From: Cytophagales bacterium
GTDB taxonomy: Bacteria > Bacteroidota > Bacteroidia > Cytophagales > Spirosomataceae
Direction: 5' to 3'
Length of the DNA stretch: 43,567 bases
Assembly: GCA_013298025.1 (NCBI GenBank)
Contig: JAAFJE010000032.1
Location: 1-43,567, forward strand
Shown here one piece after another: positions 15,466 through 39,475 of the stretch; position 1 is the first letter of the stretch; every line of letters starts with the position of its first letter. The notes under the pieces were generated by a model, which saw only the letters and a list, made by a program, of their open reading frames with translations, searched no databases and was not told where the DNA came from. The position numbers were made by a program, and so were the translations under genes.

Positions 15466-15466
15466 T

Positions 15467-17176
15467 ATGAGTCATAAAAATCAATTACAGAAACTCGAAC
15501 TCACGTGGATTGGCAAAGGCGAAGAACCTGCACTTGAGCCTCGCATACTGATAGAAAACCCCGAGTACAGCTATGGCGACCCCAATAGCGAAAACATGCT
15601 TATACACGGTGATAACCTCCTTGCTTTAAAAGCCCTTGAACAAGACTATGCAGGCAAAGTAAAGTGTGTCTGTATTGATCCTCCTTATAATACAGGCAGT
15701 GCGTTTGAACACTATGATGATGGCATTGAACATTCTCTCTGGTTATGCTTGATGACTATTAGATTAAAAATCTTGAGGAATTTACTCAGCGATGATGGTT
15801 CAATTTGGATAGCGATAGATGACAATGAAGCACATTACTTAAAGGTTTTGTTAGATGAAATTTTTGGCAGAAAAAATTTCGTCGCTTCGGTTATTTGGGA
15901 AAAAACTTACAGTGAGCGTATGGACGCTAAAGGTTTTAGTACTTCTCATGATTATATTCTGGTTTATAAAAAAACAGAAAAATTTACAGTAAACCAACTT
16001 GATAAAGAACAGGACAAAAAACAATTCAACTTTTATGATGTAAAGGCTAAAAAATATTACAGACGCAGGTCTTTAAGAAAAGAAGGGTCTGAGTCTTTGA
16101 GAAGTGATAGACCTTCAATGTGGTATGAAATTAAAGCACCTAATGGAGATTCCATTTATCCTTTCAAACCTGATGGAATAGAAGGTAGATGGAGGTGGAA
16201 AAAAGAAAATGTTTTAGCAAATATAAATGAACTTGAATTTGTTCAAAAAGATAATTCTAAATGGGAGATATATGTAAAACAATATCTGAATAATGAAGCA
16301 ACTAGACCTCCAGCTACACTTTGGAGACAAGAAGAGGTAGGACATAACCATGAAGCAAAAGAAGAAGTAAAATTATTTAACAAAGTACAAATATTTGGAA
16401 CACCCAAACCTGAAAGATTAATTCAGAAAGTGTTAACTATTGCTTCAAATCCTGGCGACCTAGTTCTTGATTCCTTTTTAGGTTCAGGCACAACCTCAGC
16501 CGTAGCCCACAAAATGGGCAGGCGTTGGATAGGTGTAGAATTGGGCGAACACGCCAAAACACATTGTGTACCTCGTATGCAAAAAGTAATAGATGGCGAG
16601 CAAGGCGGTATCAGCAAAGCTGTTAATTGGCAAGGCGGTGGTGGCTTTAAATTTTATACGCTTGCACCAAGTTTATTAAAACAAGATAAATTTGGTAATT
16701 GGGTGATTAGCGGAGAGTATAATGCCGATATGTTGGCAGCCGCTATGGCAAAGCAAGAGGGGTTTAAATACCAGCCTCATGCAAGTATTTATTGGAAACA
16801 AGGGCAAAGTTCGGAGCAAGATTTTATTTTTACCACTACGCACTTCCTTACCGTAGAAGCATTAGAAAGCATCAAAGAAGAGATGCAAGCAGGCGAAACC
16901 TTGTTGATTTGTTGTAAAAGTTTTCAAAAAGAATGCAAAGACAAATACAGCAATATTACCATTAAAAAAATACCACAAATGCTTTTGGGTAGATGCGAAT
17001 TTGGTAAAGAAGATTACAGCCTAAACATTATCAATATGCCAGCAAATGAACAAGAATCAGCGAATTTGCAAGACGAGCAAGGCTTTAAAAATGAAAAAGT
17101 AAGTGTTCAAGAAATGTTGGATAAGCGTAAGAAACAAAAGCAAAAAACCCTTAACAACCCAACCTTATTTGATTAA
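15467..17176 (+). CDS. Site-specific DNA-methyltransferase (adenine-N6, beta class, type III Mod-like)
   Basis: A 569-residue methyltransferase with the beta-class order. Catalytic motif IV DPPYNTG is near residue 72, then comes a central target-recognition region (about 130-310), and the AdoMet motif DSFLGSGTTSAVAH is at about 335-348. LIHGDNLLALKAL upstream of motif IV is typical of type III Mod. It would protect host DNA and give sequence specificity to the Res subunit. The frame is open from 15398, but that overlaps the helicase; the ATG at 15467 is 2 bases after the helicase stop and starts MSHKNQLQKLELTW as expected. The C-terminal 150 residues are less conserved and may contact Res. 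Confidence 0.9.
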   Translation: MSHKNQLQKLELTWIGKGEEPALEPRILIENPEYSYGDPNSENMLIHGDNLLALKALEQDYAGKVKCVCIDPPYNTGSAFEHYDDGIEHSLWLCLMTIRLKILRNLLSDDGSIWIAIDDNEAHYLKVLLDEIFGRKNFVASVIWEKTYSERMDAKGFSTSHDYILVYKKTEKFTVNQLDKEQDKKQFNFYDVKAKKYYRRRSLRKEGSESLRSDRPSMWYEIKAPNGDSIYPFKPDGIEGRWRWKKENVLANINELEFVQKDNSKWEIYVKQYLNNEATRPPATLWRQEEVGHNHEAKEEVKLFNKVQIFGTPKPERLIQKVLTIASNPGDLVLDSFLGSGTTSAVAHKMGRRWIGVELGEHAKTHCVPRMQKVIDGEQGGISKAVNWQGGGGFKFYTLAPSLLKQDKFGNWVISGEYNADMLAAAMAKQEGFKYQPHASIYWKQGQSSEQDFIFTTTHFLTVEALESIKEEMQAGETLLICCKSFQKECKDKYSNITIKKIPQMLLGRCEFGKEDYSLNIINMPANEQESANLQDEQGFKNEKVSVQEMLDKRKKQKQKTLNNPTLFD

Positions 17177-17187
17177 AAATAATCATT

Positions 17188-18885
17188 ATGATACATAAAT
17201 TACTATTAAAGAATTTCAAACGCATCAAAGATGAGATATTTGAGTTCAATCAATTTGATTTAATTGTTGGGGCAAACAATAGTGGTAAAAGTACAGCATT
17301 GCAAGCATTGGCTATCTGGCAATACTGTGTAGATCAATTTACTTTATCGAAAAGAAAAGGAAGTAGAGGTATTCAAGTAGTACTACCAAACTTTACAGCT
17401 TTGCCTTTGCCTGAGTTTAATTTACTGTGGACGGATAAAGTCAGTCAAGAAAAAGGGAATAACCAAATTTATATTGAAATAGATGTATATTGGAAAGACG
17501 AGCAGAATCAAGAGCAGAATTTTTGTGTATTGATGCGTTATCAATCTCCGCAAGCAGCGTTTGCCATTCCAAAGGGAGATTGGAAAAATTTCACAGAAAA
17601 GATTTCACTTCCAAGCTTTCCAAAGGTTGTATATGTACCCCCATTTTCAGGTTTAGAACCTCATGAAAAATGGATGGATGATGGCAACGTAAAACAACAA
17701 ATAGGGAAAGCACAACCGGGTTCGGTATTAAGAAATTTACTGTTTAGAGTTATTGATAGAGGAAACGTAAAACCCAAAGATAATACAGATTGGCAAGAAA
17801 TAATTAGTAAAGTAAACGAGTGGTTTGGGGTTGAACTACAAGTACCCAATTATGAGAAAGGTATAAGTACCGAAATAGTATCGGAGTATAAAGTTGGAAA
17901 GAAAAGTTTTGATATTATTTCAGGCGGAAGTGGATTTCACCAAATCCTTACGCTATTAGCGTTTGTATATGGGTATCCAGAAGTAAGCACCATTTTGTTT
18001 GATGAACCCGATGCACATTTACATGTAAATTTACAAAGGCAAATTGTAAACTACTTTAAGCTCAACATTGGCAACCAATTCATTATTGCTACTCATTCTG
18101 AAGAGTTTATCAAGAATGTAGAAATCAATTCTATTTTATCAATTTTGTCAGGGAAACCTAAAAGGATTCAGTCAAACAATGAAGTATTACATGCTTTAAG
18201 TGAAATAGATAATATTGATGTGGTAAGAACCGAGCAAAGTCCATTTATTCTTTATGTTGAAGGAGAAGATGATGAGCGTTTGTTATCAGTTTGGGCCGAA
18301 AAGTTAGGAAAGACAGAAGTCTATCAAAAGTTTTACCCTTTTATATTGGGCGGTTCTACCAAAAAAGAAATGCAAGAAAAAGCAGATAGACATTATAAAG
18401 CTTTAAAACAAATAGTGCCGAAAGTCAAAAGAGCAATTTTATTAGATTATGATTCTGACGAAGTAGCCATAAACCCACTTCCAGAAAATAAGGTACTTAA
18501 TGAATGGAAGAGAAAGAACATAGATAATTATTTATTGCTACCTGATGCTTGGAAAAAAGCCGTTGCAAATTCATTAAATCTAAAGATAGATGAATTGTTT
18601 ATACAGGGCTATCTTCAACTAATTGACGAACATTTTAACAATGAAAATTTAGTATTACCACCAAACGCTAATTGGAAAAATGTAAATGCAAGTATTTTTA
18701 AAGTATTAGATGGGAAAAAACTACTATTTGAGAATAAAGATTCATTATTTGAAAAAATAAAGAATCATTCTGGTGGAAGTCTTAAAATCAATAGAAGTAT
18801 TTTAGCTCAAAGTATGGAAGCTAATGAAATACACATAGACATAGAAGTGTTTTTCAACAATTTAGAAAGTATAGTAAATGGATAA
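17188..18885 (+). CDS. OLD-like AAA ATPase with TOPRIM domain
   Basis: A 565-residue protein with an ABC/SMC-type ATPase split around an insert: Walker A GANNSGKS (28-35), signature-like ISGGSGFHQ, Walker B TILFDEPDAHLH and a switch ATHSEEF. A TOPRIM-like segment follows: YVEGEDDERLL (about 353) and AILLDYDSDE (about 415), which give the conserved Glu and Asp-x-Asp. This is the layout of overcoming-lysogenization-defect (OLD) nucleases, also seen in GajA. It lies 11 bp after mod and its end overlaps res by 8 bp, so it belongs to the operon. OLD proteins are not standard type III R-M components. It may be a second effector or a sensor. Confidence 0.85.
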   Translation: MIHKLLLKNFKRIKDEIFEFNQFDLIVGANNSGKSTALQALAIWQYCVDQFTLSKRKGSRGIQVVLPNFTALPLPEFNLLWTDKVSQEKGNNQIYIEIDVYWKDEQNQEQNFCVLMRYQSPQAAFAIPKGDWKNFTEKISLPSFPKVVYVPPFSGLEPHEKWMDDGNVKQQIGKAQPGSVLRNLLFRVIDRGNVKPKDNTDWQEIISKVNEWFGVELQVPNYEKGISTEIVSEYKVGKKSFDIISGGSGFHQILTLLAFVYGYPEVSTILFDEPDAHLHVNLQRQIVNYFKLNIGNQFIIATHSEEFIKNVEINSILSILSGKPKRIQSNNEVLHALSEIDNIDVVRTEQSPFILYVEGEDDERLLSVWAEKLGKTEVYQKFYPFILGGSTKKEMQEKADRHYKALKQIVPKVKRAILLDYDSDEVAINPLPENKVLNEWKRKNIDNYLLLPDAWKKAVANSLNLKIDELFIQGYLQLIDEHFNNENLVLPPNANWKNVNASIFKVLDGKKLLFENKDSLFEKIKNHSGGSLKINRSILAQSMEANEIHIDIEVFFNNLESIVNG

Positions 18886-21550
18886 CATCGCTAATAACAT
18901 CAAACAACGCCTATCTCTTCGTGAACCACTTCAAGATGCACTTGATATTGTAGTTCAATTGGCTCAAACATTAGAACTTAAAAAAGAGGGCGATTTAGCC
19001 ACAGAATTAAAAAAGGTTAAATCACATTTTCCTACTTGTACCGATTTTGAAAGAGATTTTGTTTCTATTGCCTTCTCTATAGCAACAGGTGTAGGAAAAA
19101 CTCGATTAATGGGGGCTATTGTAGCTTATTTGTACTTACAAAAAGACATCAAAAACTTTTTCATTTTAGCACCAAACCTTACGATTTATGATAAACTCAT
19201 TGAAGATTTTGGTAATCCAGCCTATCATAAATACGTCTTTAATGGAATATCAGAATTTGTGCATAACAGACCTGTAGTAATTACTGGTGATAATTACGCA
19301 CAGCAAGGAGCATTGTTTTCAAATTCCGAAATCCGAATCAATATTTTCAACATTGCCAAGTTCAATTCTGACAATAAAGGTTCTAAAAAAGATGGCGTTA
19401 GTTTAGCTCCTAAAATCAAAAGACTATCCGAATACTTAGGACAATCTTATTGGGAATATTTAACTGGTTTAGACGATTTAGTAATTCTAATGGACGAAGC
19501 ACACCGCTACCACGCAGATGCTTCTAAAAATGCTATTAATGAATTAAAACCAATATTAGGCATAGAACTAACCGCTACACCATTTGATGAAAAAGGGAAA
19601 CAATTTAAAAATGTAGTTTATGAATATTCTTTAGCACAAGCCCTATCAGACGGTAAGTTTGTAAAAAACCCTGCTATTGCTACCAGAAAAAACTTTCAAA
19701 AAGGCTCATTAACTGATAGAGAAGTTGAAATCATCAAACTGGAAGATGCTATCAGCATACATCAAGACACCAAAAACGAATTGGAAATCTATTCCAAAAG
19801 TAACGAAGTGAAATTGGTAAAACCATTCATTTTGGTTGTATGTAAAGATATAGCACACGCCAAGGAAATTTACGAACTAATCAACTCAGAAGCTTTTTAT
19901 GATGGGCAATACAAAGGCAAAGCATTACAGATAGATTCATCTACCAAAAAAGAAGAAGACATAGAAAAGCAGTTTGTTTCATTAGAAAATCCAGATAATG
20001 AAATAGAAATTGTAATCCACGTAAATATGCTCAAAGAAGGTTGGGATGTTACCAATTTATACACCATAGTGCCACTTCGTGCTGCCAATGCAGGTATTTT
20101 AATTGAGCAAACTATTGGTAGAGGTTTACGTTTGCCTTATGAGGGTAAACGTACAGGGGTAGATAAAATAGATAAATTGACAGTAGTTGCTCACGAAAAT
20201 TTCAATGCAGTGATTGAAGCAGCTCAAGACCCTAATTCGGTATTAAACAAAATGAGTTTTGTAGAAATAGCCGAAGAAGATTTATCTACTAAAACCACAG
20301 TGGTTACTTCACAGCCAATAATGGTGGAAACTTTTGTAAAAGAACAAGAGAAAATAAATATCATTACAAACCCTCAAGACAAACAAAAAGCACAAAACAA
20401 CTTAGATGCTAAAAAAGCAATTATCAATGCTTTGCCTAATTTTAATTCTTTACCTGAAGTTCGTAAGGTAGAAGATTTATGTAAGGAAGAAGTAAAAAGT
20501 CTAGTAATTAAGCAGATAGAGAAAAACCTATCCGAAGGGCAACTTAATTTATTTGCCGCTCAAATTGTAGAAGAAGCCAAAGTAGTATATGATGTAATGG
20601 TTTCAGAATATAAAAAGAACATTATTGAAATACCACGTATGGACTTAGTCCAAGGTGAAACAAGAGCCGAGTTTAAACATTTTGAATTAGATATTATTGA
20701 ATTCAATTTTCAAGCTTTAGAGCAAGAAATTATTCGATTGGGTTTAAAAGATAAGCAAGTAGAAACACTTAAAGCAAAATCAAGCGGTTTGTATGGCAAC
20801 CCTATTAAACTTATCATCTCGGAATTAATTGATTTTCCAGAAATTGATTATGATGAGAATGCAGATTTACTATATCATTTGGCTACTCAAGCCTATGAAG
20901 CTATAAAATCTAATATAAGTAACGAAGCAGAGTTACCGCAGGCAATCTTTCAGTTTAAAGCCACCATTGCTGAAAGAATTTACAATCAAATGAAGAAACA
21001 TTTTATTTTGCACACTACAGGGTACAATAAACCAAATATTTTACCTTTCCAGAAAATAGAGCAATGGAGTTTTTCATCATTGGTAAATGCGGGCTATAAA
21101 GATTACCGAGATATAGTAAGCCCCACTAACATGATTCCTAAATATGTATTTAGGGGTTTTGAAAAAGCTTGTCATTTTGAATATAAGTTTGACAGTAAAG
21201 CAGAACAAGATTTAGCATTTGTTTTAGAAAATGATACATCGATTATCAAGTGGCTTAGACCAGCTCCCAACCAATTCAGAATTTATTGGGATAATAACTC
21301 AAAAAGATACGAGCCTGACTTTATTGTAGAAACGGAACATAGTATATATATGATTGAGGTGAAACGCTCAGACCAAATAGAAGAAGAAACTGTTTTAGCA
21401 AAAAAAATAGCAGCAGAACGTTTCTGCAAATACGCATCAGAATATACATCAGTTCATCAAGGCAAAAATTGGGAATACTTAATTTTACCTCACAATGAAG
21501 TTAGTAGAACCGTAAGTATGAAATATTTATCGACGATGTTTAAAGGTTAA
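18878..21550 (+). CDS. Type III restriction endonuclease Res-like helicase-nuclease
   Basis: An 890-residue superfamily 2 helicase with a C-terminal nuclease. Motifs: ATGVGKT (about residues 68-74), DEAH in ILMDEAHRYHAD (about 205), TATP in GIELTATPFDE, HVNMLKEGWDV, and motif VI QTIGRGLRLPYEG. The C-terminal PD-(D/E)xK core is EPDFIVE (about 811) with IEVK (about 825). This is the Res subunit that cleaves DNA with Mod after ATP-driven motion on DNA. Standard Res proteins are slightly longer (about 950-1000). Its ATG lies inside the end of the OLD gene. It closes the operon; no further gene follows before the right edge of the island. Confidence 0.9.
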   Translation: MDNIANNIKQRLSLREPLQDALDIVVQLAQTLELKKEGDLATELKKVKSHFPTCTDFERDFVSIAFSIATGVGKTRLMGAIVAYLYLQKDIKNFFILAPNLTIYDKLIEDFGNPAYHKYVFNGISEFVHNRPVVITGDNYAQQGALFSNSEIRINIFNIAKFNSDNKGSKKDGVSLAPKIKRLSEYLGQSYWEYLTGLDDLVILMDEAHRYHADASKNAINELKPILGIELTATPFDEKGKQFKNVVYEYSLAQALSDGKFVKNPAIATRKNFQKGSLTDREVEIIKLEDAISIHQDTKNELEIYSKSNEVKLVKPFILVVCKDIAHAKEIYELINSEAFYDGQYKGKALQIDSSTKKEEDIEKQFVSLENPDNEIEIVIHVNMLKEGWDVTNLYTIVPLRAANAGILIEQTIGRGLRLPYEGKRTGVDKIDKLTVVAHENFNAVIEAAQDPNSVLNKMSFVEIAEEDLSTKTTVVTSQPIMVETFVKEQEKINIITNPQDKQKAQNNLDAKKAIINALPNFNSLPEVRKVEDLCKEEVKSLVIKQIEKNLSEGQLNLFAAQIVEEAKVVYDVMVSEYKKNIIEIPRMDLVQGETRAEFKHFELDIIEFNFQALEQEIIRLGLKDKQVETLKAKSSGLYGNPIKLIISELIDFPEIDYDENADLLYHLATQAYEAIKSNISNEAELPQAIFQFKATIAERIYNQMKKHFILHTTGYNKPNILPFQKIEQWSFSSLVNAGYKDYRDIVSPTNMIPKYVFRGFEKACHFEYKFDSKAEQDLAFVLENDTSIIKWLRPAPNQFRIYWDNNSKRYEPDFIVETEHSIYMIEVKRSDQIEEETVLAKKIAAERFCKYASEYTSVHQGKNWEYLILPHNEVSRTVSMKYLSTMFKG

Positions 21551-26462: not shown

Positions 26463-26872
26463 CAACACGCTAATGTAGAGGCAAACAATTTTAGATTTCG
26501 TAAACAGTTTTCAATGTGTCATTAATTCTCTCTGTAAGTAACTCAACTAACACATCATCCATAAATTCGTAATCGTCTGGAATGTTTAAGATTTTAATGT
26601 CGGGTAATGCTACGTGTCTATAAATATCCCAAATTTTAGCCCTTTGTTTTGTTTCCATAACAAATACTAAGTCAGCCCAGTATAAGTCATTTTCTGAAAT
26701 TTTTCTGTCACTCTTTGGGCTTAATCCTGCTGAACGAACATTAAAGCGATTATCATTTTTAAAGATGTACTCTGCCGTCCTGCTACGTTTTTTATTTCGT
26801 CCACAAACTACCAATATATTTGGTCTTTCTATCATTCGGTTTCTATTGTTTTTATTGGCAAACACTAATTGA
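26463..26872. repeat. 410-bp duplicated unit, copy 1 (phosphatase-like gene)
   Basis: Identical to 27693-28102 except for nine substitutions and no indels. It includes the whole phosphatase-like gene, 28 bases after its stop and 37 bases before its start. The sequences diverge abruptly at both ends. Confidence 0.95.
26491..26835 (-). CDS. Low-molecular-weight protein tyrosine phosphatase-like protein, copy 1
   Basis: A 114-residue protein starting MIERPNILVVCGRNKKRSRT. Cys11-x5-Arg17-Ser18 matches the phosphate-binding loop of low-molecular-weight tyrosine phosphatases and arsenate reductases. WADLVFVMET and a late acidic loop IPDDYEFMD would supply the general acid. It is shorter than standard family members (about 150 residues). 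The frame stays open 48 bp further upstream, but the second copy agrees best with the ATG at 26835. The protein is identical in copy 2. A role in an accessory regulatory or defence setting is possible but not shown. Confidence 0.75.
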   Translation of the reverse strand: MIERPNILVVCGRNKKRSRTAEYIFKNDNRFNVRSAGLSPKSDRKISENDLYWADLVFVMETKQRAKIWDIYRHVALPDIKILNIPDDYEFMDDVLVELLTERINDTLKTVYEI

Positions 26873-26931
26873 CTTAGAGTCATGCCATCAGTTGACTTGA
26901 CGATACTACTGTGTTGGCAGACGTATTTTTA

Positions 26932-27692: not shown

Positions 27693-28102
27693 CAACACGC
27701 TAATGTAGAGGCAAGCAATTTTAGATTTCGTAAACAGTTTTCAATGTGTCATTAATTCTCTCTGTAAGTAACTCAACTAACACATCATCCATAAATTCGT
27801 AATCGTCTGGAATGTTTAAGATTTTAATGTCGGGTAATGCTACGTGTCTATAAATATCCCAAATTTTTGCCCTTTGTTTTGTTTCCATAACAAACACTAA
27901 GTCAGCCCAGTATAAGTCATTTTCTGAAATTTTTCTATCACTCTTTGGGCTTAATCCTGCTGAACGAACATTGAAGCGATTGTCATTTTTAAAAATGTAT
28001 TCTGCTGTCCTGCTACGTTTTTTATTTCGTCCACAAACTACCAATATATTTGGTCTTTCTATCATTCGGTTTCTATTGTTTTTATTGGCAAACACTAATT
28101 GA
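27693..28102. repeat. 410-bp duplicated unit, copy 2 (phosphatase-like gene)
   Basis: Matches 26463-26872 at 401 of 410 positions. Immediately beyond the unit the flanks carry short inverted versions of each other: CTTAGAGTCATGCCATCA follows copy 1 and TGATGGCATGACTAAG follows copy 2. Confidence 0.95.
27721..28065 (-). CDS. Low-molecular-weight protein tyrosine phosphatase-like protein, copy 2
   Basis: It encodes exactly the same 114 residues as the gene at 26491-26835, although eight nucleotides differ, all at synonymous positions (for example GCT/GCA, GTA/GTG, GAC/GAT, TTT/TTC, ATC/ATT). The active-site loop Cys11-x5-Arg17-Ser18 is preserved. That pattern argues both copies were kept under selection or that the copies came from separate but related sources. 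Confidence 0.75.
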   Translation of the reverse strand: MIERPNILVVCGRNKKRSRTAEYIFKNDNRFNVRSAGLSPKSDRKISENDLYWADLVFVMETKQRAKIWDIYRHVALPDIKILNIPDDYEFMDDVLVELLTERINDTLKTVYEI

Positions 28103-30880: not shown

Positions 30881-31816
30881 TTATCCTAATACCACAGGAC
30901 CCGCTTGATTGATACCCGAAACATAGCATTCCGAGCCGATACCAACTTTTGCAAAACCATCTTGCATGGCTTTACCTACCCTGTTGGCCGTAAATAAATC
31001 TTTCGACAAAGCAAACATCGAAGGCCCCGAACCAGAGATAGAACAGCCCAAAGCACCATTTTCTAATGCTGCATTTTTCACATCATCAAACTGCGGAATC
31101 AAAATCGAGCGGATTGGTTCGATGATAACATCGACCAAACTTCTCGAAATTAAATCATAGTCGGGCAACATAAACCCAGCTACTAAACCCGCCACATTGC
31201 CCATTTGAGTAATGGTATTTTTTAAAGAAATTTCTCTTTTCAAAATATTCCGTGCGTCTTTGGTATTTACTTCAATATGCGGATGAACAATGGTTGCATA
31301 AAGCTCTTTTGGGGTACGCAATTGAATAATATCTAGCGGGTCATAAGAACGAATGACCACAAAACCTCCCATTAAACTTGGCCCAACGTTGTCGGCATGG
31401 GCAGACCCACAAGCGATAAATTCGCCTTCCATCGCAAAGGGCAATAAATCTTTTTGAGCTAAAGGCTTGCCTAGTAGTTCGTTAGCAGCAAAAACACCTG
31501 CTACCGCCGAAGCCGCCGACGAACCCAAACCAGAGCCGAGTGGCATCAGTTTTTTCAGTTCTAGCTCAAATCCCTGACCCGTTTCTCCAATAGCTTCCAA
31601 AAACTTAATGATGGCAATACCAGCCGTATTTTTCTCTGCTGCCAAAGGCAAACGCCCTTCATCACCTTCAATTTTTAAAATTTTGACACCTTTCGTATCA
31701 GATTTTCGTACTATGATTTCATCGCCAGGGTTATCAACCGCAAAACCGAAAATATCAAAACCACAAGCCACATTAGCCACTGTAGCTGGGGCAAAAACTT
31801 TTATTGAATCGTTCAT
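30881..31816 (-). CDS. thrB: Homoserine kinase
   Basis: A 311-residue GHMP kinase that phosphorylates L-homoserine with ATP in threonine synthesis. The ATP-binding motif PLGSGLGSSAASAVAG lies at about residues 90-105. The N-terminal KVFAPATVANVACGFDIFGFA is typical of homoserine kinases, as are the late block GCSISGSGPSMFAL and the HADNVGP segment. It is the downstream gene of a thrA-thrB operon that is now interrupted by about 5 kb of accessory genes. Its first 40 bases recur as degraded copies in two scars further upstream. No thrC follows within the window; a terminator does. Confidence 0.95.
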   Translation of the reverse strand: MNDSIKVFAPATVANVACGFDIFGFAVDNPGDEIIVRKSDTKGVKILKIEGDEGRLPLAAEKNTAGIAIIKFLEAIGETGQGFELELKKLMPLGSGLGSSAASAVAGVFAANELLGKPLAQKDLLPFAMEGEFIACGSAHADNVGPSLMGGFVVIRSYDPLDIIQLRTPKELYATIVHPHIEVNTKDARNILKREISLKNTITQMGNVAGLVAGFMLPDYDLISRSLVDVIIEPIRSILIPQFDDVKNAALENGALGCSISGSGPSMFALSKDLFTANRVGKAMQDGFAKVGIGSECYVSGINQAGPVVLG

Positions 31817-31848
31817 TAATTATGAATGAAAAAAAGCCTATTTCCTAG

Positions 31849-33744
31849 TTAAAAAAGACTTATTTCATTATTATTATAGTCAAAATTAATTTTAAAATCA
31901 GGCTTTCCTCCCGATTCTTTCGTTTTTCCATCTTTTCTTTGAATAAACTTCTTCGCTTCTAATTGATTAAAGATATTTCTAACTTTTCGCTTATAAGACT
32001 CAAAATCGCTAACATTTTCAACAATTTTATGCTCTTGAAGGTACAAAAAATTTCCAATAGCATTAGCACTAACGATCTCTGTACTTATAGCATACATGTT
32101 ATGTTGATGAATCGCCAAAAGTACTTTTTTATATTCAATTGGTAGAAAAACAAAATCATTACCAAATATGGTCACTAACTCTGCTGTAAAATCTTCTTTT
32201 GTAAGTGTTCTATTAACTAAATATACAGGGTATAGTTCTGGACTTTCAGGATTTTTAAACAGCAAACCTTTATCTTCTAAATCAGCAATTACATTTTTAT
32301 GGTTATTGTCGGAAGTTAATAAAACGGTATAATGTTCTAACCTGTTTTGTTTTTCAGACTTATAAAAATAGCTTAATATGATTTTCTCTTCTTCGTTTAA
32401 TTCTCTACCATATAACTCATGAATAAAACGAGAAAAACTATTGAGCCAAATCGCCATGGCATCATCGTAAATTTTCCCTTTGGGAATAAACAATTTAATT
32501 TCATCAGTCATTAAAATATAATAGGGCAAATCTATTGTATTCTCTAAACAAGCATCGGTTAAAGATGCTAACCCTTTGCCTTTACCTTCCCAACGGTCAA
32601 AGCTTTTTAACAAATCTGTTAGCTTAGGATTACGTGCCACTTGAATCGGAATTATTCTTCTGATTTTACCTTCTCTGGTATCCAGATTTATCACCTGTTT
32701 AGGTCGGAATGCGCCAGGGTTTCTAATCATAATGCTTTCGTTTGGTTTAATCTCTATGATTCCAAAACGATTGCTTTTATAATCTCTATGAGCTAAGGCA
32801 TTATTAATAGTTTCTTCTATGAGGGCTTCTGGATACTCAGGCAAGGGTGTACCCCCATTTTTTCTACTGACACCAACTTGAATATTTTTATAAACAAACC
32901 CTATACTTTCTTCCATTAGGGAAATGATATTATCTTTTAAGACTTGTTTATTCTGGGCTACAACAATTGGAGAATCTACGTAACAATCCATTTCACATTT
33001 GCCCCCTGTGTAGTCTTCAACATAATCTCCACAAACTAACATTCCTAACAATGTTGGCTTATTATTTCTTACAAAGGCTTTACGATGTAAGAAAGGCAAT
33101 GCTTTTTCTAAATCAGCTTTTAAGGTTTCAACTGTTTTCCCTCTATTTAGCCTAATAATGTATTGGTTGAGTTTATCAATATTTAATAATTCTAATGAAG
33201 CCTCATCGACAATAGATAGTTCTTGTGCGTTGATTAACTCCTGTTTTAAATCTTCTTGGCGTTCAATTTCCACCTTGCTAAGAATGTGGTCTCCTGTGAT
33301 ATTTCTCTTATATGCTTGACCTTGATAATAGACAAATTTTTCATCTTCAGGAAGTTTTTCAACATAAATCAAAGCGATATGTCCTGAATGGAATGGCTTA
33401 ATTTCGGTTGTTGGAAAATAGGAAGTTAAGTCAATCAAACGTCCATTCTTATCTGTAAAAAACTTCGTACTAAGTTCCTTTAACTTAGCTTCATTGTCAT
33501 AATTGAAGCCTTTAAATAAGTAATGCTTTTTACTTTTGTCCCTTTCATTCCCCTTATCTTTTATGCCAATCACAATAATACCACCATTTGTATTCAAAAA
33601 AGCACAAACTGTTTTATACAATTCTGTCCAATCAGAACCAGTTGAAAGGTCTTTTAACTCAAGACGCTCTGTTTCTACCTCAACATAAGTTTGGATAGAA
33701 ATACATTCCTCTAATGTTCGTAATGTCTTATCAATGAAATTCAT
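31849..33744 (-). CDS. AlbA_2 (Schlafen-like) DNA/RNA-binding protein with HATPase-like domain
   Basis: A 631-residue protein. The N-terminal part (about 20-160) has the AlbA_2/Schlafen pattern (ETERLELKDLS…, LNTNGGIIVIGIKDKG, AYKRNITGDHILSK). The middle has an RecG-related HATPase_c_4-like region with EALIEETINNALAHRDYKSNRFGIIEI (about 313-340) and GKGLASL. The C-terminal third is winged-helix-like (…NIFNQLEAKKFIQRKDG). Such proteins are poorly characterised, and several occur in phage-defence or stress contexts. It forms module 1 of the thrA-thrB insertions, ends 32 bp before the thrB ATG, and is more AT-rich than thrA or thrB. Confidence 0.8.
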   Translation of the reverse strand: MNFIDKTLRTLEECISIQTYVEVETERLELKDLSTGSDWTELYKTVCAFLNTNGGIIVIGIKDKGNERDKSKKHYLFKGFNYDNEAKLKELSTKFFTDKNGRLIDLTSYFPTTEIKPFHSGHIALIYVEKLPEDEKFVYYQGQAYKRNITGDHILSKVEIERQEDLKQELINAQELSIVDEASLELLNIDKLNQYIIRLNRGKTVETLKADLEKALPFLHRKAFVRNNKPTLLGMLVCGDYVEDYTGGKCEMDCYVDSPIVVAQNKQVLKDNIISLMEESIGFVYKNIQVGVSRKNGGTPLPEYPEALIEETINNALAHRDYKSNRFGIIEIKPNESIMIRNPGAFRPKQVINLDTREGKIRRIIPIQVARNPKLTDLLKSFDRWEGKGKGLASLTDACLENTIDLPYYILMTDEIKLFIPKGKIYDDAMAIWLNSFSRFIHELYGRELNEEEKIILSYFYKSEKQNRLEHYTVLLTSDNNHKNVIADLEDKGLLFKNPESPELYPVYLVNRTLTKEDFTAELVTIFGNDFVFLPIEYKKVLLAIHQHNMYAISTEIVSANAIGNFLYLQEHKIVENVSDFESYKRKVRNIFNQLEAKKFIQRKDGKTKESGGKPDFKINFDYNNNEISLF

Positions 33745-33771
33745 GGACTATATTGTTTGATACACAATTAC

Positions 33772-33877
33772 GCCAAATAACTCCAGCGGTTACTTCTGCT
33801 CCAGCACCCGACGGTGAACGAAATCACGTTTTCGGTACTGTAAATTGGGGCAAAACTTTTATTGCATTTGTTGTCAT
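33772..33877 (-). pseudogene. Scar 1: thrB 5' fragment fused to thrA 3' fragment
   Basis: On the minus strand it begins with a thrB-like start (ATG at 33877, then AAAAGTTTTGCCCC with one base missing versus thrB). It continues into a thrA C-terminal fragment (33772-33830) with the same internal ~38-base deletion as scar 2 plus a further loss of about 30 bases. The thrA-like end reads …YLA then a TAA stop. No functional product is expected. Confidence 0.85.
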
Positions 33878-33909
33878 GCTATTATTTTCCAAAATATGCT
33901 TCTCATAAA

Positions 33910-34602
33910 TTACGATGAGGAAGCCAACATACTTTTAATAATTAGGTCTATCCATGCGTTAAAGCGTGGACACGCTTCTAAAATCTTTTCTATTCCTGTT
34001 AATTCGGCAATATCAATTCCATCAGTAATCTTATTGTAGTTTTTCTTGTAGCACTTATAAATGGCTTCTATCCTTTTAGAAGGAAAACCTTCTGGGGTAC
34101 TATTGATATCTTCAATGTTTTCAAACTGACTTTTTAATGCAACTATTTCATTTTTTATTTGAGCGTCCTCCAAATCAAAACCAGTTTCAGGATTAGCAAA
34201 TAACAACGTTTCAAATTCATGTCTCAAAATATTGGGAATAAAATCTGGATACGTTTTTATAGCATTAACATAGCTTTTGAGTGATTCTTCCATGCACAAA
34301 ATCCGTTGCTCAATATCAGGTTTGGTTATACAATTCAGATAATTCGGCATTTTTTGTTCACTATTAATACCAGCGTAATCAATCATCGTAGTAATAATAG
34401 GTTGGTCTTTATAGTGTAAAAGTGGTCGAATGGTATTTCCGAAATGCACTATGTTATTAAACCCATGTCCGCCTCCACTCATGGTTATCTTAATGGGTTT
34501 AATGTTTGTATGTAATCCCTGATTAGATAAATGTGGGATTAGTAATCTTTCCACAAATTCTGCCTCCGTTTGCCCTTCAACTACAATATACAAATGTTTC
34601 AT
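33910..34602 (-). CDS. DUF4276 family (TOPRIM-like) protein
   Basis: A 230-residue protein with the DUF4276 start MKHLYIVVEGQTEAEFVERLL, where Glu9 and the following acidic position resemble the TOPRIM catalytic Glu. TTMIDYAGI supplies an Asp, and FETLLFANPE with the late PSKRIEAIYKCYKK block completes the family pattern. It overlaps the AAA ATPase gene by 4 bp (ATGA), so the two are co-translated. The pair matches the general design of ATPase plus TOPRIM nuclease defence systems such as PARIS and AbiL. Function is inferred from that design only. Confidence 0.8.
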   Translation of the reverse strand: MKHLYIVVEGQTEAEFVERLLIPHLSNQGLHTNIKPIKITMSGGGHGFNNIVHFGNTIRPLLHYKDQPIITTMIDYAGINSEQKMPNYLNCITKPDIEQRILCMEESLKSYVNAIKTYPDFIPNILRHEFETLLFANPETGFDLEDAQIKNEIVALKSQFENIEDINSTPEGFPSKRIEAIYKCYKKNYNKITDGIDIAELTGIEKILEACPRFNAWIDLIIKSMLASSS

Positions 34603-35675
34603 GGCATACCTCCTATCACATTTTTATTCCATAAGTCGCCAATAGTATATTCTTGCATCCAGTCTTTCAGTGATTCACTATTTTGTCTTATAAATACTGA
34701 TTGGTTATCTTTTCTATCTACTGTAATTATGTCTTCTGGTTCAAAATTATCAACCAGATTGACAGACTGAGTAGATATAATTACCTGACTCTCAGCAGAA
34801 GCTTTTTTGATTAAACCGGCCAATTTATTAATGGCAAAAGGATGTAAGCCTAATTCTGGTTCGTCAATGATAATCGTTGTGGGTAATTCGGGTTGCAAAA
34901 GCAGTGTTGCTAAAGCCATAAACCGTAGTGTACCATCTGAAAGGTGCATGGCAAACAGACGCATATTGGAGTCTTTTTGTTTCCACGATAATTGAATTTT
35001 ATCCTCTCTAATTCTGTCGGGTTCTAACACAAAACAATCAAAATAGGGAGCAACCGACTTGATGAGCATTTCTATTTTTTTAAAATTCTTAGGATATTTT
35101 TCCTGAAGAAAGTATAAATAGGCTGCTAAATTACCCCCATCTTCATGTAGAAATTGATTATCGTCAATATTGCCTTTTTGCTTAATTCTTGCTGTTTTGC
35201 TGGTATCATGGAAATGGAAGATTTTGAAAGACGACATATATCGTCTAACATAGTTGTATCTGAGTCCATCTACATCTTTCAGTTTACTTTCAAAGTGGCC
35301 ATTTCCAAAAAAGTCTTTATCCCAACCTAAATTATGATAATCACGATTAAATCCAGTTTCCTCACGTATGAAATACAAATTATCTTGCGAATTTGGTTTT
35401 AAAGTAAAAGCATAAGCGTTTGTTTTATCAAACTCAATTCTTCCTAAAAGGCTTTCAGATTGCTTTAAACCATTGTACAAAATGTTTTCAGCACCTGCTT
35501 CTTCCGCAACGTAATTTTGTAAATTTTGAGCGTAAATATGATAGGTTAGTTTGAAAAAATTAATAAAATTACTTTTCCCCGCTCCATTCGCACCAATGAG
35601 TACGTTGATGGGTAAAAGCTCCAAATCCATTTCCTGAATAGATTTGAAATTTCTGATTTGTATTAAATTTATCAT
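34599..35675 (-). CDS. AAA ATPase (AAA_21, OLD/PARIS-like) paired with DUF4276 protein
   Basis: A 358-residue ABC-type ATPase with Walker A GANGAGKSNF (about residues 28-37), a signature-like MHLSDGTLRFMALATLLLQ, Walker B TTIIIDEPELGLHPFA and a switch STQSVNLVD. No nuclease domain is fused; the overlapping downstream gene supplies a TOPRIM-like protein. The start at 35675 (MINLIQIRNFKSI) is preferred over the GTG at 35696, which lies inside the thrA-derived scar. It forms module 2 of the thrA-thrB insertions. An anti-phage sensor-effector pair is the most likely role. Confidence 0.85.
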   Translation of the reverse strand: MINLIQIRNFKSIQEMDLELLPINVLIGANGAGKSNFINFFKLTYHIYAQNLQNYVAEEAGAENILYNGLKQSESLLGRIEFDKTNAYAFTLKPNSQDNLYFIREETGFNRDYHNLGWDKDFFGNGHFESKLKDVDGLRYNYVRRYMSSFKIFHFHDTSKTARIKQKGNIDDNQFLHEDGGNLAAYLYFLQEKYPKNFKKIEMLIKSVAPYFDCFVLEPDRIREDKIQLSWKQKDSNMRLFAMHLSDGTLRFMALATLLLQPELPTTIIIDEPELGLHPFAINKLAGLIKKASAESQVIISTQSVNLVDNFEPEDIITVDRKDNQSVFIRQNSESLKDWMQEYTIGDLWNKNVIGGMP

Positions 35676-35692
35676 ACTAAAGATTAAAGTTA

Positions 35693-35830
35693 TCACGCCA
35701 AATAACTCCCAATCGCCACAATATCAGCAAATACGCCCGAGGCGGTTACTTCTGCTCCAGCACCCGATGGTGAACGAAATCACGTTGTCGGTGCTGTAAA
35801 TTGGGGCAAAACTTTTGTTGAAGGTGTCAT
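35693..35830 (-). pseudogene. Scar 2: thrB 5' fragment fused to thrA 3' fragment
   Basis: 35697-35766 matches the thrA 3' end (36947-37016) at 69 of 70 positions. 35768-35791 matches 37056-37079 at 23 of 24, so about 38 bases are deleted between them. 35792-35830 then resembles the thrB start, including an ATG at 35830, with one base lost. On the minus strand the thrA reading frame is kept for the last 22 or so residues and ends SYLA-TGA. Confidence 0.9.
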
Positions 35831-35834
35831 ATAA

Positions 35835-36032
35835 TCAAAGACCAGCTTGTTTCAAAAGCTCATCTAATTGATTACCATTGATATTCTCTTACTCACTGTT
35901 ATCATAAATAGTCAAGAGATAAATAGTTTCATTTACAATTTTAACGCAAGTAATTACTCTTGCACCACCTGACAGCAATTGACATTCTAACTTTGTAGCA
36001 GTCCTTTCCAATCGAAGTACCTTGAAAAGCAT
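35835..36032 (-). pseudogene. Decayed RelE-family toxin (3' part)
   Basis: One frame reads VLRLERTATKLECQ, then SGGARVITCVKIVNETIYLL and TIYDNSE, an in-frame TAA (35889-35891), then ENINGNQLDELLKQAGL and a final TGA. The GGARVI…YLLxIY core is characteristic of RelE (HigB-like) toxins of about 110 residues. The N-terminal half is missing and the core is cut by the stop. It cannot make an intact toxin. Confidence 0.7.
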
Positions 36033-36258
36033 TATCTGTTAAAAAATCACAAGCAGTTTGCAACTCAATCTTTCCTTGTTGATGCAACTCTACTTGCTCC
36101 AATGCCTCTTTTAAATCTTCAACAAATTCCTTTTGCTGAGTATTAAGGTTCTTTTTCTTATTACTACTATTTTACTTTACTTGAAAGTGCAACGTCTTCG
36201 CTAATTCTTTAATTAACGAAATATGTTTGGACTGAACATTTTCTAAAATAAGGTTCAT
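36033..36258 (-). pseudogene. Broken antitoxin-like gene upstream of the RelE relic
   Basis: It starts MNLILENVQSKHISLIKEL and reaches a TAA at codon 29 (36172-36174). The same frame then continues with QQKEFVEDLKEALEQVELHQ, a helical Glu/Lys-rich stretch typical of small antitoxins. Its ATG overlaps the TGA of the PIN gene, so it was once part of a coupled operon. The exact end is approximate. Confidence 0.6.
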
Positions 36259-36680
36259 AAATAATCATTTAAGAAATCTTGCCATAAAATAACATTTGAA
36301 AAGCCTTTTTGCTTTAATCCTTCATATAGAATTGCATCTCTTGTGATAAACGCTATATTGAATTCTATTGATAGAGCTACATAAACTAAATCATCCAAAT
36401 CTATTTCTTTACACCAATTGTAGGCTTGAAGATAGCTTTGAGTACTAATTAAAAAATTAGGAACTATCAGAATATCACTTAAAATGTCAAGCGTAAAATT
36501 TGTTAATTCTTCATTTTTAAGTTTTGTTTTGCTCAAAATTATTGTCTGGTGTTCTTGTAGCTCTAAAAGCCCATAATCTGGCATAAGAAACTTAACTCGC
36601 TTGATTAGCTCAAGATACTCGTCTCGACCACTAATAAAAATCGAAAACAAGATATTTGCATCAATTATAAACCGTTTCAA
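36255..36680 (-). CDS. PIN-domain protein (VapC-like toxin)
   Basis: A 141-residue PIN-fold ribonuclease candidate. Acidic residues at D7 (FIIDANI), E40 or E43, D96/D97 (EIDLDDLVYVAL) and D115 (FITRDAIL) fit the metal-binding set. PIN toxins cut tRNA or mRNA when the antitoxin is lost. Its ATG overlaps the stop of the small upstream gene by 4 bp, and its own stop overlaps the next (broken) gene, so the frames form a chain. It appears intact. Confidence 0.8.
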   Translation of the reverse strand: MKRFIIDANILFSIFISGRDEYLELIKRVKFLMPDYGLLELQEHQTIILSKTKLKNEELTNFTLDILSDILIVPNFLISTQSYLQAYNWCKEIDLDDLVYVALSIEFNIAFITRDAILYEGLKQKGFSNVILWQDFLNDYL

Positions 36681-36910
36681 GGAATGATATTTTTTAAATG
36701 CTGCTCTTTAAATTTAGCAAATGCTTTTTTCTTTGACTCCTTCCAAAGTTGATTATGGTCAATTCCTAATTCCAAGACTGCTTCTTCAATCTTATTGGCA
36801 ATTTTATGCAAACGCTTGAAATGTAATATTCTTTCAACATCACTTTTTAAAGCTTCCAAACCTGCTTCTTTAATCAGTGCATCATCTATATCAATAATGA
36901 GTTGTGCCAT
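36677..36910 (-). CDS. Putative antitoxin partner of the PIN protein
   Basis: A 77-residue protein starting MAQLIIDIDDALIKEAGLEAL, predicted mostly helical, rich in Lys/Glu and ending with a basic tail. The beginning resembles short beta-strand plus helix DNA-binding antitoxins, but no family can be named with confidence. It is the first gene of module 3, 32 bp after the thrA stop, and is coupled to the PIN gene by ATGA overlap. The operon arrangement is the main reason for the antitoxin call. Confidence 0.65.
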   Translation of the reverse strand: MAQLIIDIDDALIKEAGLEALKSDVERILHFKRLHKIANKIEEAVLELGIDHNQLWKESKKKAFAKFKEQHLKNIIP

Positions 36911-36942
36911 ATTCTTGCTTTTTTAATTTAAAGATACTGAAT

Positions 36943-39402
36943 CTAAGCCAAATAACTCCCAATTGCCACAATATCAGCAAATACGCCCGAGGCGGTTACT
37001 TCTGCTCCAGCACCCGGGCCTTTGATGACCAACGGGCGGTCGTGGTAGCGTTTGGTGGTGAATGAAATCACGTTGTCGGCGCCGTCCATCATATAGAATG
37101 GATGCGTTTTTCCGATGCTTTTTACGCCAATCGTAATTTTGTTGTTTTCTAAGGTTGCAATAAATCTTAATACTTCGCCTTTGGCTTCGGCTTCGTTGAC
37201 CATCTGCTCGAAATAACTGTTCGATACTTCCAATTCCTTGAAAAAGTCATCTACGGTAGGGGCTTCTTCGCAGTTTTGAGGCAATAATTTATGAATGGTT
37301 ACGTCTTCTGGTTCGAGTCTTAAACCAATTTCTCGTCCTAAAATCAAAATCTTACGGGCTACGTCCATGCCACTCAAATCTTCTCGTGGGTCGGGTTCGG
37401 TATAGCCTTTTACTTTGGCTTCTCGCACGATGTCGGCAAATTTTACGCCTGCTTTGAAATTGTTGAAAATATACGATAAAGTTCCCGAAAGTACCCCTTC
37501 TATTTTCTCAAATCTATCGCCCGAAGCAATTAAGCCTTGCAAAGTATTGATTACGGGTAAACCTGCTCCTACGTTGGTTTCGTACAAAAACTTTACGCCT
37601 TTTTTCAAAGCTGTACGATGCAACAAAGCGTAGTCGTCATAACGCCCCGAATTGGCTACTTTGTTGGGGGTTACGACCGAAATATTGGCTTCAAAAAGTC
37701 CTAAATAATAGTTATGAATATTCTTGTCGGCGGTGCAATCGGCAAAGACCGAATTGGGTAAATTCAAGCGTTTGGCTTCTTCTACAAATGCCCACAATTC
37801 GGCAGGTTTGCCTAGGTTTTGCACGTCGTCGGCCCAAGTGTCCATCGAAATGCCATCGGTATTAATCAACATTTTACGTGAGTTCATTACGCCCACTAAG
37901 TTGATTTTCAAAGCTTTGTATTTTGATAAATAATTGGCTTGTCCTTTGAGTTGATTCAACAAGGTTTTGCCAATCAAGCCTGTACCTACCAAGAACAAGT
38001 TGAGGTTTTTGACCTGCGAAAAGAAAAAGGTATCATGAATAACATTGAGGGCTTTGGAAATATCTTTTTTCTCAATCACCACTGAAATGTTCAATTCCGA
38101 TGAGCCTTGGGCTGTAGCTACAATATTGATACCATTTTTACCTAAAACCGAAAATAATTTTCCACTTACACCCGTATGCTGACGCATTCCTTCGCCTACA
38201 ACGGCTATGACAGAAAGGTTTTCTTGGATTTCAACGCCTTCTACATCGCCTTGGGCAATTTCTGTTTTAAATTCTTCTTCTAATAAAGTTTTCACCGCAA
38301 CGCTTACCGATGGGTCGATGGCAAAGCAGATAGAATGCTCGGAAGAAGCTTGCGAAATCAGGATAACCGAAATTTTATTTTTGGCTAAAACGGTAAACAA
38401 TTTTGCCGAAACACCAGCCACGCCAATCATGCCAGAGCCTTGTAAGTTGACCAACGCTAGGTTGTCAATCGAACTAATGCCTGTAATGATGTACTCAGAG
38501 GGGTCGGCGGTGCGGCTTACCACTGTGCCTTCAAAATCGGTATTGAATGTATTGAGTACCCGGATAGGGATATTTTTGGCAAAAGCAGGTTGCAACGAAG
38601 GTGGATAAATCACCTTTGCCCCAAAATGCGTGAGTTCCATTGCCTCCGCATAGGTGATGGTAGGAATGGTAAACGCATTTTTTACCTTGCGTGGGTCGGC
38701 TGTCATCATGCCGTCCACGTCTGTCCAGATTTCAATTTCATCGGCATCGAGTGCTGCCCCGAAAATCGAACCCGTATAATCAGAACCACCACGCCCCAGC
38801 GTGGTAGTTTCGCCTTTGTCGGTAGAGCCAATAAAGCCAGTGATGAGTTGCAAAGCCTTTCTTTTGGCAAAATAGGCTTGAATCAGTTGGTTGGTTTCGG
38901 CAAAATTGACTGCCGCCATGCCAAAATTCGCATCTGTTTTTATCACTTTTCTGGCATCTAAAAACTGACAATCAACGCCTTGTGCATGAAGTATTTCGTA
39001 AATCAAGGTCGTAGAAAGTCTTTCTCCGAAACTCACAATTAAGTCGGATGTTCGAGCTGAAATTTCACGAATCAAAGACACCCCTTTCAGTAAATCTTCT
39101 AATTCATTAATAATGGTACGAATGTTGGCAAAAACTTTCGACTGGGCTTTCACATCAATCAATGCACGTACAACTGTGAAATGACGGTCTTCAATGCCTT
39201 TTACTATGTCGAAATAACTGGTGTCGCCCGTAGAAGCTAAATCTCCTGCTTTCAACAATTGGTTGGTTACACCACCCATAGCCGAAAACACGGCTGCTAC
39301 TTGTGCTCCTTGGGCTATTTTGCCTTTGATAATCCCTAACACCGCTTGGATACTCTCTGTAGTACCGCAAGAAGTTCCTCCAAATTTAAGTACTTTCATC
39401 AT
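36943..39402 (-). CDS. thrA: Bifunctional aspartokinase/homoserine dehydrogenase
   Basis: An 819-residue fusion enzyme that catalyses the first and third steps from aspartate to homoserine. The N-terminal kinase starts with VLKFGGTSCGT, has FGERLSTTLI and GRGGSDYTGS, and is followed by ACT domains (about 310-455). The dehydrogenase half starts at the NAD motif LFLVGTGLIGKTLL (about 470) and carries TADKNIHNYY, NKVANSG, EGVLSGTLSYIFN and GYTEPDPREDLSGMDVARK. The start is one of two adjacent ATGs (39402 or 39399); an upstream extension to 39426 is less likely. Its last 24 codons recur, degraded, in two scars. Threonine feedback through the ACT domains is known for the family. Confidence 0.95.
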   Translation of the reverse strand: MMKVLKFGGTSCGTTESIQAVLGIIKGKIAQGAQVAAVFSAMGGVTNQLLKAGDLASTGDTSYFDIVKGIEDRHFTVVRALIDVKAQSKVFANIRTIINELEDLLKGVSLIREISARTSDLIVSFGERLSTTLIYEILHAQGVDCQFLDARKVIKTDANFGMAAVNFAETNQLIQAYFAKRKALQLITGFIGSTDKGETTTLGRGGSDYTGSIFGAALDADEIEIWTDVDGMMTADPRKVKNAFTIPTITYAEAMELTHFGAKVIYPPSLQPAFAKNIPIRVLNTFNTDFEGTVVSRTADPSEYIITGISSIDNLALVNLQGSGMIGVAGVSAKLFTVLAKNKISVILISQASSEHSICFAIDPSVSVAVKTLLEEEFKTEIAQGDVEGVEIQENLSVIAVVGEGMRQHTGVSGKLFSVLGKNGINIVATAQGSSELNISVVIEKKDISKALNVIHDTFFFSQVKNLNLFLVGTGLIGKTLLNQLKGQANYLSKYKALKINLVGVMNSRKMLINTDGISMDTWADDVQNLGKPAELWAFVEEAKRLNLPNSVFADCTADKNIHNYYLGLFEANISVVTPNKVANSGRYDDYALLHRTALKKGVKFLYETNVGAGLPVINTLQGLIASGDRFEKIEGVLSGTLSYIFNNFKAGVKFADIVREAKVKGYTEPDPREDLSGMDVARKILILGREIGLRLEPEDVTIHKLLPQNCEEAPTVDDFFKELEVSNSYFEQMVNEAEAKGEVLRFIATLENNKITIGVKSIGKTHPFYMMDGADNVISFTTKRYHDRPLVIKGPGAGAEVTASGVFADIVAIGSYLA

Positions 39403-39475
39403 GTTTTGTGGGTGAGTGCTAGGCACTCCGACTGCTTTACAACAGCAGGTTTTGATTGTTTTGATTAACGAACGG

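Follow-up and report, generated by a model that had tools for sequence, protein, structure and literature searches.

How do several putative defence and toxin-antitoxin modules come to stand one behind another between two genes of a threonine operon? Searches for defence hotspots usually begin from integrases, tRNA genes, phage satellites or transposons. The present case lies in a window of 43,567 nucleotides, contig JAAFJE010000032.1 of the draft genome of Cytophagales bacterium GCA_013298025.1 (53 contigs, reported contamination 0.54%), referred to below as the study genome. Its thrA and thrB genes are 5126 bp apart, and the open reading frame (ORF) list and Pfam place three intact modules and two scars in the gap. 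Along the minus strand, thrA is followed by module 3, a dead module, scar 2, module 2, scar 1, module 1 and finally thrB; every module is co-directional with the thr operon. We consider it probable, though well short of certain, that this junction is a variable cassette locus where modules are gained, swapped and lost through recombination in the thr flanks together with illegitimate joins, and that the study genome has concatenated three alleles. The variability of the cargo, the composite nature of the array, the anatomy of the scars, the conflict between gene trees and the losses of modules were observed directly.

Read along the operon strand, each scar consists of the first 37-41 bases of thrB followed by the end of thrA. 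In scar 2 (35693..35830, minus strand) the thrB start (35794-35830) is fused to a thrA end that has a 38-base internal deletion and stops with TGA at 35693-35695. Scar 1 (33768..33877, minus strand) joins a thrB start (33837-33877) to a thrA end that carries deletions of 38 and ~31 bases and stops with TAA at 33768-33770. The same 38 thrA columns are missing from both scars and the fusion point is common, scar 1 being ~31 bases shorter still. With 1000 dinucleotide shuffles of the thrA-thrB interval as a null, the thrB-head scores of 20 and 19 exceeded the shuffle maximum of 18, and the thrA-tail scores of 68 and 30 exceeded a maximum of 21. Over a block of 86 bases the two scars are 92% identical, and they were thus taken to have one origin; since one fusion and one deletion are common to both, the second scar was most likely derived from the first. 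Scar 2 also repeats 70 of the 74 bases that close thrA, at 99%. All three copies keep a YLA end, which is followed by TAG in thrA, TGA in scar 2 and TAA in scar 1. An earlier note, made from the sequence alone, had described thrB start-thrA end scars between the modules, a shared ~38-base deletion with one fusion point, and YLA ends with three different stops; the shuffles and the alignment bear out this description. Its suggestion that the stops mark diverged donor alleles does not hold up: the thrA piece of scar 2 matches the thrA gene of the study genome best, at 94 of 100 aligned bases (Arcicella rosea is next with 90), as does that of scar 1, at 59 of 71 (next best, 56). The scars were therefore made, or later homogenised, within the lineage of the study genome.

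The fusion is private to the study genome among 222 genomes of the family. Within the study genome no scar was found elsewhere at an E-value of 0.001, the sole match being the thrA-thrB locus itself, and the other 221 genomes yielded no thrB-thrA fusion at 0.01. They gave four weak matches, extending over 22-24 bases from the thrA portion or 19 bases from the thrB portion. Across the intervals of 20 relatives, the matches to the scar or its parts were all short and weak, the best case being 37 bases at 78% (E 0.015) in a distant locus, L082. The genome search that had been proposed as a check on the scars thus turned up nothing unlinked to thr in the study genome, but the fusion proved absent from all the other genomes. 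Module 2 alone sits between two direct scar copies.

The genes that bound the array are intact: thrA (36943..39426, minus strand) encodes an aspartate kinase-homoserine dehydrogenase with Pfam AA_kinase and Homoserine_dh matches and ends in TTGGCT-TAG, and thrB (30881..31816, minus strand) encodes a homoserine kinase of the Pfam GHMP kinases. Module 3, next to thrA, pairs a 77-amino-acid antitoxin-like protein (36677..36910, minus strand), which has no Pfam match, with a PIN-domain toxin-like protein (36255..36680, minus strand; Pfam PIN_2, E 2e-16). Their counterparts at the same place in a relative (L114, on the same contig as L087) are 53% and 67% identical at the amino acid level, respectively. 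Three modules had been noted before, and three intact ones were found, but a fourth was missed: between module 3 and scar 2, tblastn places a decayed antitoxin-RelE module (35838..36141, minus strand). Compared with an intact pair at the same junction (L080), its antitoxin is 56% identical and its RelE 71% and 59% identical in two frames, all partial; the intact relative of this RelE has a Pfam RelE match. Module 2 consists of adjacent HEC-01A and HEC-01B genes, which encode both proteins of the PADLOC candidate defence system HEC-01. HEC-01A (34599..35675, minus strand; PADLOC E 6e-144) is an AAA_21 ATPase by Pfam and has an alternative GTG start at 35696 in the ORF list, and HEC-01B (33910..34602, minus strand; PADLOC E 5e-57) matches DUF4276. 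The AlphaFold2 model of HEC-01B is poor (predicted local distance difference test score 57) and a fold search with it returned no match with an E-value of 0.001 or less; searches of PDB sequences returned only short or weak matches. Module 1 is a 631-amino-acid SLFN_AlbA_2 protein (31849..33744, minus strand; Pfam E 1e-13), 76% identical to a protein at the same locus of A. rosea. Its HATPase_c_4 match falls under the Pfam cut-off, and in PADLOC it matched ~100 residues of Argonaute-type models and nothing else.

The modules may act against phage, and they would be co-transcribed with thr. A scan for promoters of a Bacteroidetes-type consensus gave one site, inside thrA, against 0.68 expected, and a second rule gave none against 1.26. 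Pfam detected no integrase, transposase or recombinase domain in 28 ORFs of the window, the other window ORFs and the rest of the genome lying outside that search. The modules likewise lack a transposase domain by Pfam; terminal repeats and target duplications were inspected by eye in three intervals only. A phage origin of the interval was set aside when no phage match was found, as was a plasmid origin, for which five plasmid records gave only partial matches, 2-13% of the query, to the AAA and DUF4276 genes.

Is the junction occupied in related genomes? The 222 family genomes, one per species throughout, were searched with thrB and the end of thrA, and the intervals were measured among the matches listed; one genome (G121) with thrA and thrB on different contigs went uncounted. 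The two genera nearest to the study genome are g1 (Flectobacillus and BC115SP) and g3 (Arcicella and Cytophagales metagenome-assembled genomes, MAGs). In these genera 11 of 13 genomes, the study genome included, carry cargo between thrA and thrB, and two sites are empty (52 bp in L069 and 22 bp in L077). The other filled intervals measure 1.3-2.4 kb. A. rosea (L068) has an SLFN module; Arcicella aurantiaca (L072) and BAB-3569 (L078) have HEC-01 of type a; Flectobacillus longus and three g3 MAGs (L071, L074, L076, L079) have HEC-01 of type b; L087 has an antitoxin-PIN module, L080 an antitoxin-RelE module, and L073 a truncated antitoxin with secreted genes. Type b is HEC-01 by PADLOC too (L071 as the test case), its second protein being 22-24% identical to HEC-01B of the study genome. 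Each module of the array, the dead one included, thus has a homolog at the same junction of another genome. Moreover, of 18 genomes only the study genome and A. rosea encode the SLFN protein, at thr both times, and copies of HEC-01A with at least 69% identity occur in three, at thr only; outside thr, HEC-01A is represented by a 56% copy in G047 and by more distant ones in other genomes. The other junctions that were read hold cassettes with no scar.

In the Flectobacillus/Arcicella group, the cassettes at the thrA-thrB junction vary from genome to genome, and the comparison across relatives that had been proposed earlier did find variable defence and toxin-antitoxin cargo. As judged from domain matches, the cargo (HEC-01, SLFN_AlbA_2, PIN and RelE modules) is mostly of putative defence or toxin-antitoxin type, although secreted proteins are present in five loci and L073 has only a truncated antitoxin beside its secreted genes. 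Members of one family of small secreted proteins are present in L072, L073 (twice), L080 (broken), L087 and L120, the thrA-side contig of G121; the single copy tested, that of L120, has no Pfam match. Further afield, the one genome of group g16 has a PIN module at the junction, and in one g21 genome a short gene pair runs on the opposite strand; the one protein of this pair that was tested gave a sub-threshold HicB-like match. Group g2 is cargo-free, with gaps of 7-18 bp in the 31 of 38 genomes measured. In group g32 (Siphonobacter; L082 and L083), thrA and thrB are 5.8-8.3 kb apart and enclose a transporter that is SulP-like by appearance, along with other genes; these contents are unlike the cassettes.

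Evidence for turnover comes from closely related genomes and from partial losses. Although the thrA and thrB DNA of F. longus, BAB-3569 and BC115SP is 91-95% identical, these genomes hold HEC-01 type b, HEC-01 type a and an empty site, respectively. With the study genome excluded, seven cargo states, for which six changes are the minimum, require nine changes on both the thrB tree (15 rows) and the thrA tree (14 rows); the state of FNLJ8, a remnant, was assigned by eye. L086 retains a 151-bp remnant that is HEC-like by eye. In a further genus, g8, where 35 of 48 genomes were measured and 13 with no thrA row went uncounted, 13 gaps are 772-791 bp long, 6 are 417-487 bp, 13 are at most 45 bp, and 3 have other lengths. 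All 12 filled g8 loci that were read have a HEPN gene and 8 of them also an MNT gene (Pfam HEPN and NTP_transf_2, one example each). In L131 the tail of the HEPN gene has been kept, overlapping the start of thrB, with 25 bp left; cassettes have therefore been lost as well as gained. The HEPN tail at such near-empty sites is, from its sequence, the apparent fossil of a lost cassette. When the near-empty L131 and L134 are set beside the filled L136, what appear to be the last HEPN bases overlap the thrB start codon.

Control junctions were read in the same genomes. At rpoB-rpoC, 11 of the 12 loci with an upstream long ORF, assumed to be rpoB, have 21-144 bp and no cargo; Arc337R was unreadable and two loci have no upstream gene. 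The leuC and leuD genes are on one contig in 16 of 18 genomes (intervals L148-L163). Here 11 of the 16 have 505-937 bp with small genes in the operon direction, and the remaining five, the study genome among them, have 36-211 bp with none. Four leuC-leuD proteins were tested: that of A. rosea is a GxxExxY protein, that of F. longus a four-helix-bundle protein, and two from G125 lack an NCBIfam match; the others were assigned by resemblance. The G125 interval contains a putative two-gene module. A further control, trpB-trpA, was unusable, the neighbours of trpA differing in most genomes. Among co-directional pairs in the 20-kb loci, only one could be compared in at least six loci; its gap is 234-5608 bp over seven loci, and it is probably not an operon. 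The thr junction is one of at least two biosynthetic junctions that gather small genes in this group, and is set apart by its defence and toxin-antitoxin cargo and by the array. An integrase-free hotspot, as the earlier note had it, agrees with the variable cargo in 11 of 13 g1 and g3 genomes and with the 28 ORFs free of integrase, but uniqueness is lost to leuC-leuD, which varies too.

Gene trees appear to place the study genome differently on the two sides of the array. The thrB tree makes it sister to A. rosea (99/100). In approximately unbiased (AU) tests on thrB, an Arcicella group that leaves out the study genome was rejected (p 0.0007), and grouping it with Flectobacillus gave p 0.046. 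In the thrA protein tree, by comparison, the study genome joins Arcicella as a whole (100/99) and lies outside the Arcicella rows (93/98); here a union with Flectobacillus is rejected at p 0.003, and one with A. rosea alone at p 0.02. The thrA trees omit L090 (Arc336R), which has a stop in its translation, and the protein tree omits six rows in all (Arc336R, ArcLF95, FNLJ8, ArcPrado, G002 and PseMAG). Downstream, a hexosaminidase tree of eight rows groups the study genome with Flectobacillus (94/97). A. rosea, which shares the nearest thrB with the study genome, also shares the adjoining SLFN module. The inferred relationship of the study genome thus appears to change between thrA and thrB, the place of the array, and these trees suggest recombination around it. 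Homologous recombination with relatives, which had been proposed before, agrees with the trees to this extent, but the donor divergence that went with it is unsupported.

How might cassettes have been added rather than exchanged? Under the mechanism that we favour, the incoming DNA would comprise a thrA end, a module and thrB, anchored by homology at one side. On the other side the start of the resident thrB would be joined illegitimately to the thrA end of the incoming DNA, and the new module would be added without displacing the old one. Three alleles that are separate in relatives would in this way be strung together in the study genome. The second scar may then have arisen from the first by unequal crossing-over between the thrA piece of the scar and a thrA end, or, alternatively, through an insertion that left a copy of the scar on both sides of the new module. 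A dedicated recombinase is not part of the model, none having been seen among the ORFs scanned. Serial capture leaving scars, as put forward earlier, fits the array of the study genome; as a general rule it does not, the cassettes of other genomes being scar-free and the fusion private among the 222. A more specific form of the mechanism, in which the thrA piece of the scar serves as portable homology and cassettes of conspecific donors are added by unequal crossing-over, yielding a recombinase-free cassette array, is put forward only tentatively. If it were true, the array would grow and shed modules in an integron-like way, addressed only by RecA-type homology to a biosynthetic operon, and cargo inside the thr operon would gain assured expression and retention.

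The second step could also be explained by insertion with a long target duplication, whereby module 2 entered a single existing scar and duplicated it, with no unequal crossing-over between thr copies. Module 2 does have a direct copy of the unit on either side (92% identity over 86 bases), a pattern described for restriction-modification genes of Helicobacter pylori in PMC3031569 and PMC1643837. However, the origin of the first thrB-thrA fusion would be left unexplained, and no such duplication was seen in the intervals of the 20 relatives; we regard this explanation as rather unlikely. A long ancestral array, from which other lineages each kept one module, draws on losses that are certain (the 151-bp remnant of L086, HEC-like by eye, and the HEPN tail of L131). 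Such an ancestor would have to be reconciled with scar matches that are short and weak in the 20 relatives' intervals, a fusion in none of the 221 other genomes, three close g1 genomes of which two have dissimilar HEC types and the third is empty, and scar thrA pieces nearest to the thrA of the study genome, and we find it decidedly improbable.

An assembly artefact that joined the alleles of several strains would find repeats of 70-86 bp at the joins of a 53-contig draft. While this would favour misjoining, neither scar is identical to the other or to thrA, so that short reads could separate them, and the reported contamination is only 0.54%; an artefact is very unlikely. Modules divided by direct copies of one unit also recall integron-like cassettes, with a trans-acting recombinase that uses the thrB-thrA unit as its site. 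We give this idea hardly any credence: the fusion occurs at one locus of one genome only, the unit is recognisable as thr coding sequence, and none of the 28 window ORFs scanned has a recombinase domain, a search that did not extend beyond the window or to attC-type folds.

Several observations weigh against gain and stacking of cassettes through recombination in the thr flanks. A fully homologous exchange would replace a module, not add one, and the additive step therefore has to be carried by the anatomy of the scars, whose thrA pieces look native rather than foreign. The microhomology at the fusion, AC[A/G]G, is weak, with at most ~4 bases judged by eye to match, and no joint in homologous sequence was located. 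The study genome is the only one of its species in the set, and empty or single-cassette alleles of the same lineage were not among the genomes compared. The conflict between trees is also softened at several points. The thrA DNA tree does not fix the place of the study genome; in the hexosaminidase tree its branch is not starred, its base make-up is odd and A. rosea is absent; the upstream VWA tree does not significantly reject its union with A. rosea (AU p 0.056); and the groups for the AU tests were picked after the trees and matches had been seen. DNA identity between the study genome and A. rosea is lower in SLFN (72.7%) than in thrB (88.6%), and a recent joint transfer is therefore unsupported. 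Finally, since leuC-leuD is variable as well, no thr-specific property is needed for insertions.

What the junction demonstrates is that defence and toxin-antitoxin modules, as assigned here, turn over between co-directional biosynthetic genes with no mobile gene seen, and that scars record their stacking. The leuC-leuD result suggests a systematic scan of amino-acid operon junctions for integrase-free cassette loci in Bacteroidota. Module families to which no role has been given (SLFN_AlbA_2, the HEC-01 types, the small secreted protein) could be listed from such junctions. Elsewhere in the window, positions 12568-21550 of the plus strand hold a four-gene defence-like block: an SNF2 helicase whose best PADLOC match is DrmD, a type III-like DNA methylase, an AAA_15/AAA_21 ATPase and a ResIII enzyme. 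On the minus strand, two ORFs (26491-26883 and 27721-28095) encode near-identical proteins and flank an ORF of 230 amino acids, a local duplication; the proteins are phosphatase-like by appearance, and the first has no Pfam match.

The literature matches listed on thrA or homoserine kinase with toxin-antitoxin modules, and on defence in Flectobacillus and Arcicella, hold no mention of cargo at this junction in the portions available, subscription literature lying largely outside them. The same is true of the matches listed on toxin-antitoxin modules inside operons and on integrase-free defence hotspots or cassettes. Several known systems are comparable. In the Pseudomonas aeruginosa loci cDHS1 and cDHS2, as at thr, fixed core genes flank varied defence systems, and mobile genes went undetected at 29% of the cDHS1 and 47% of the cDHS2 sites (PMC10250203). 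That paper notes adjoining tRNA or tmRNA genes. The thr site lies between two co-directional biosynthetic genes and the modules of the study genome are divided by host-gene scars. Small variable segments (PMC2884548) are likewise short, lie between backbone genes and combine one-sided homology with an illegitimate join, "illegitimate recombination assisted by homology" being discussed for them; what is described there, however, is segment replacing segment, whereas in the study genome segments pile up and leave a thrB-thrA fusion. Insertion with long target duplication (PMC3031569, PMC1643837) also places a defence-type module between direct copies of its target, but what is duplicated in the study genome is already abnormal, two gene ends fused together. 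In Streptococcus pneumoniae, transformation merodiploids arise when alternative pairing and unequal crossing-over produce tandem duplications around repeats (PMC3784515). Those duplications span ~100-900 kb, and the first case was bordered by incomplete IS861 copies (PMC3784515). As for HEC-01, module 2 has both proteins side by side, as in the PADLOC candidate system, but within a thr operon. Variable defence loci that are bounded by core genes and have no visible integrase are thus already known, and the array of the study genome is a variant of them.

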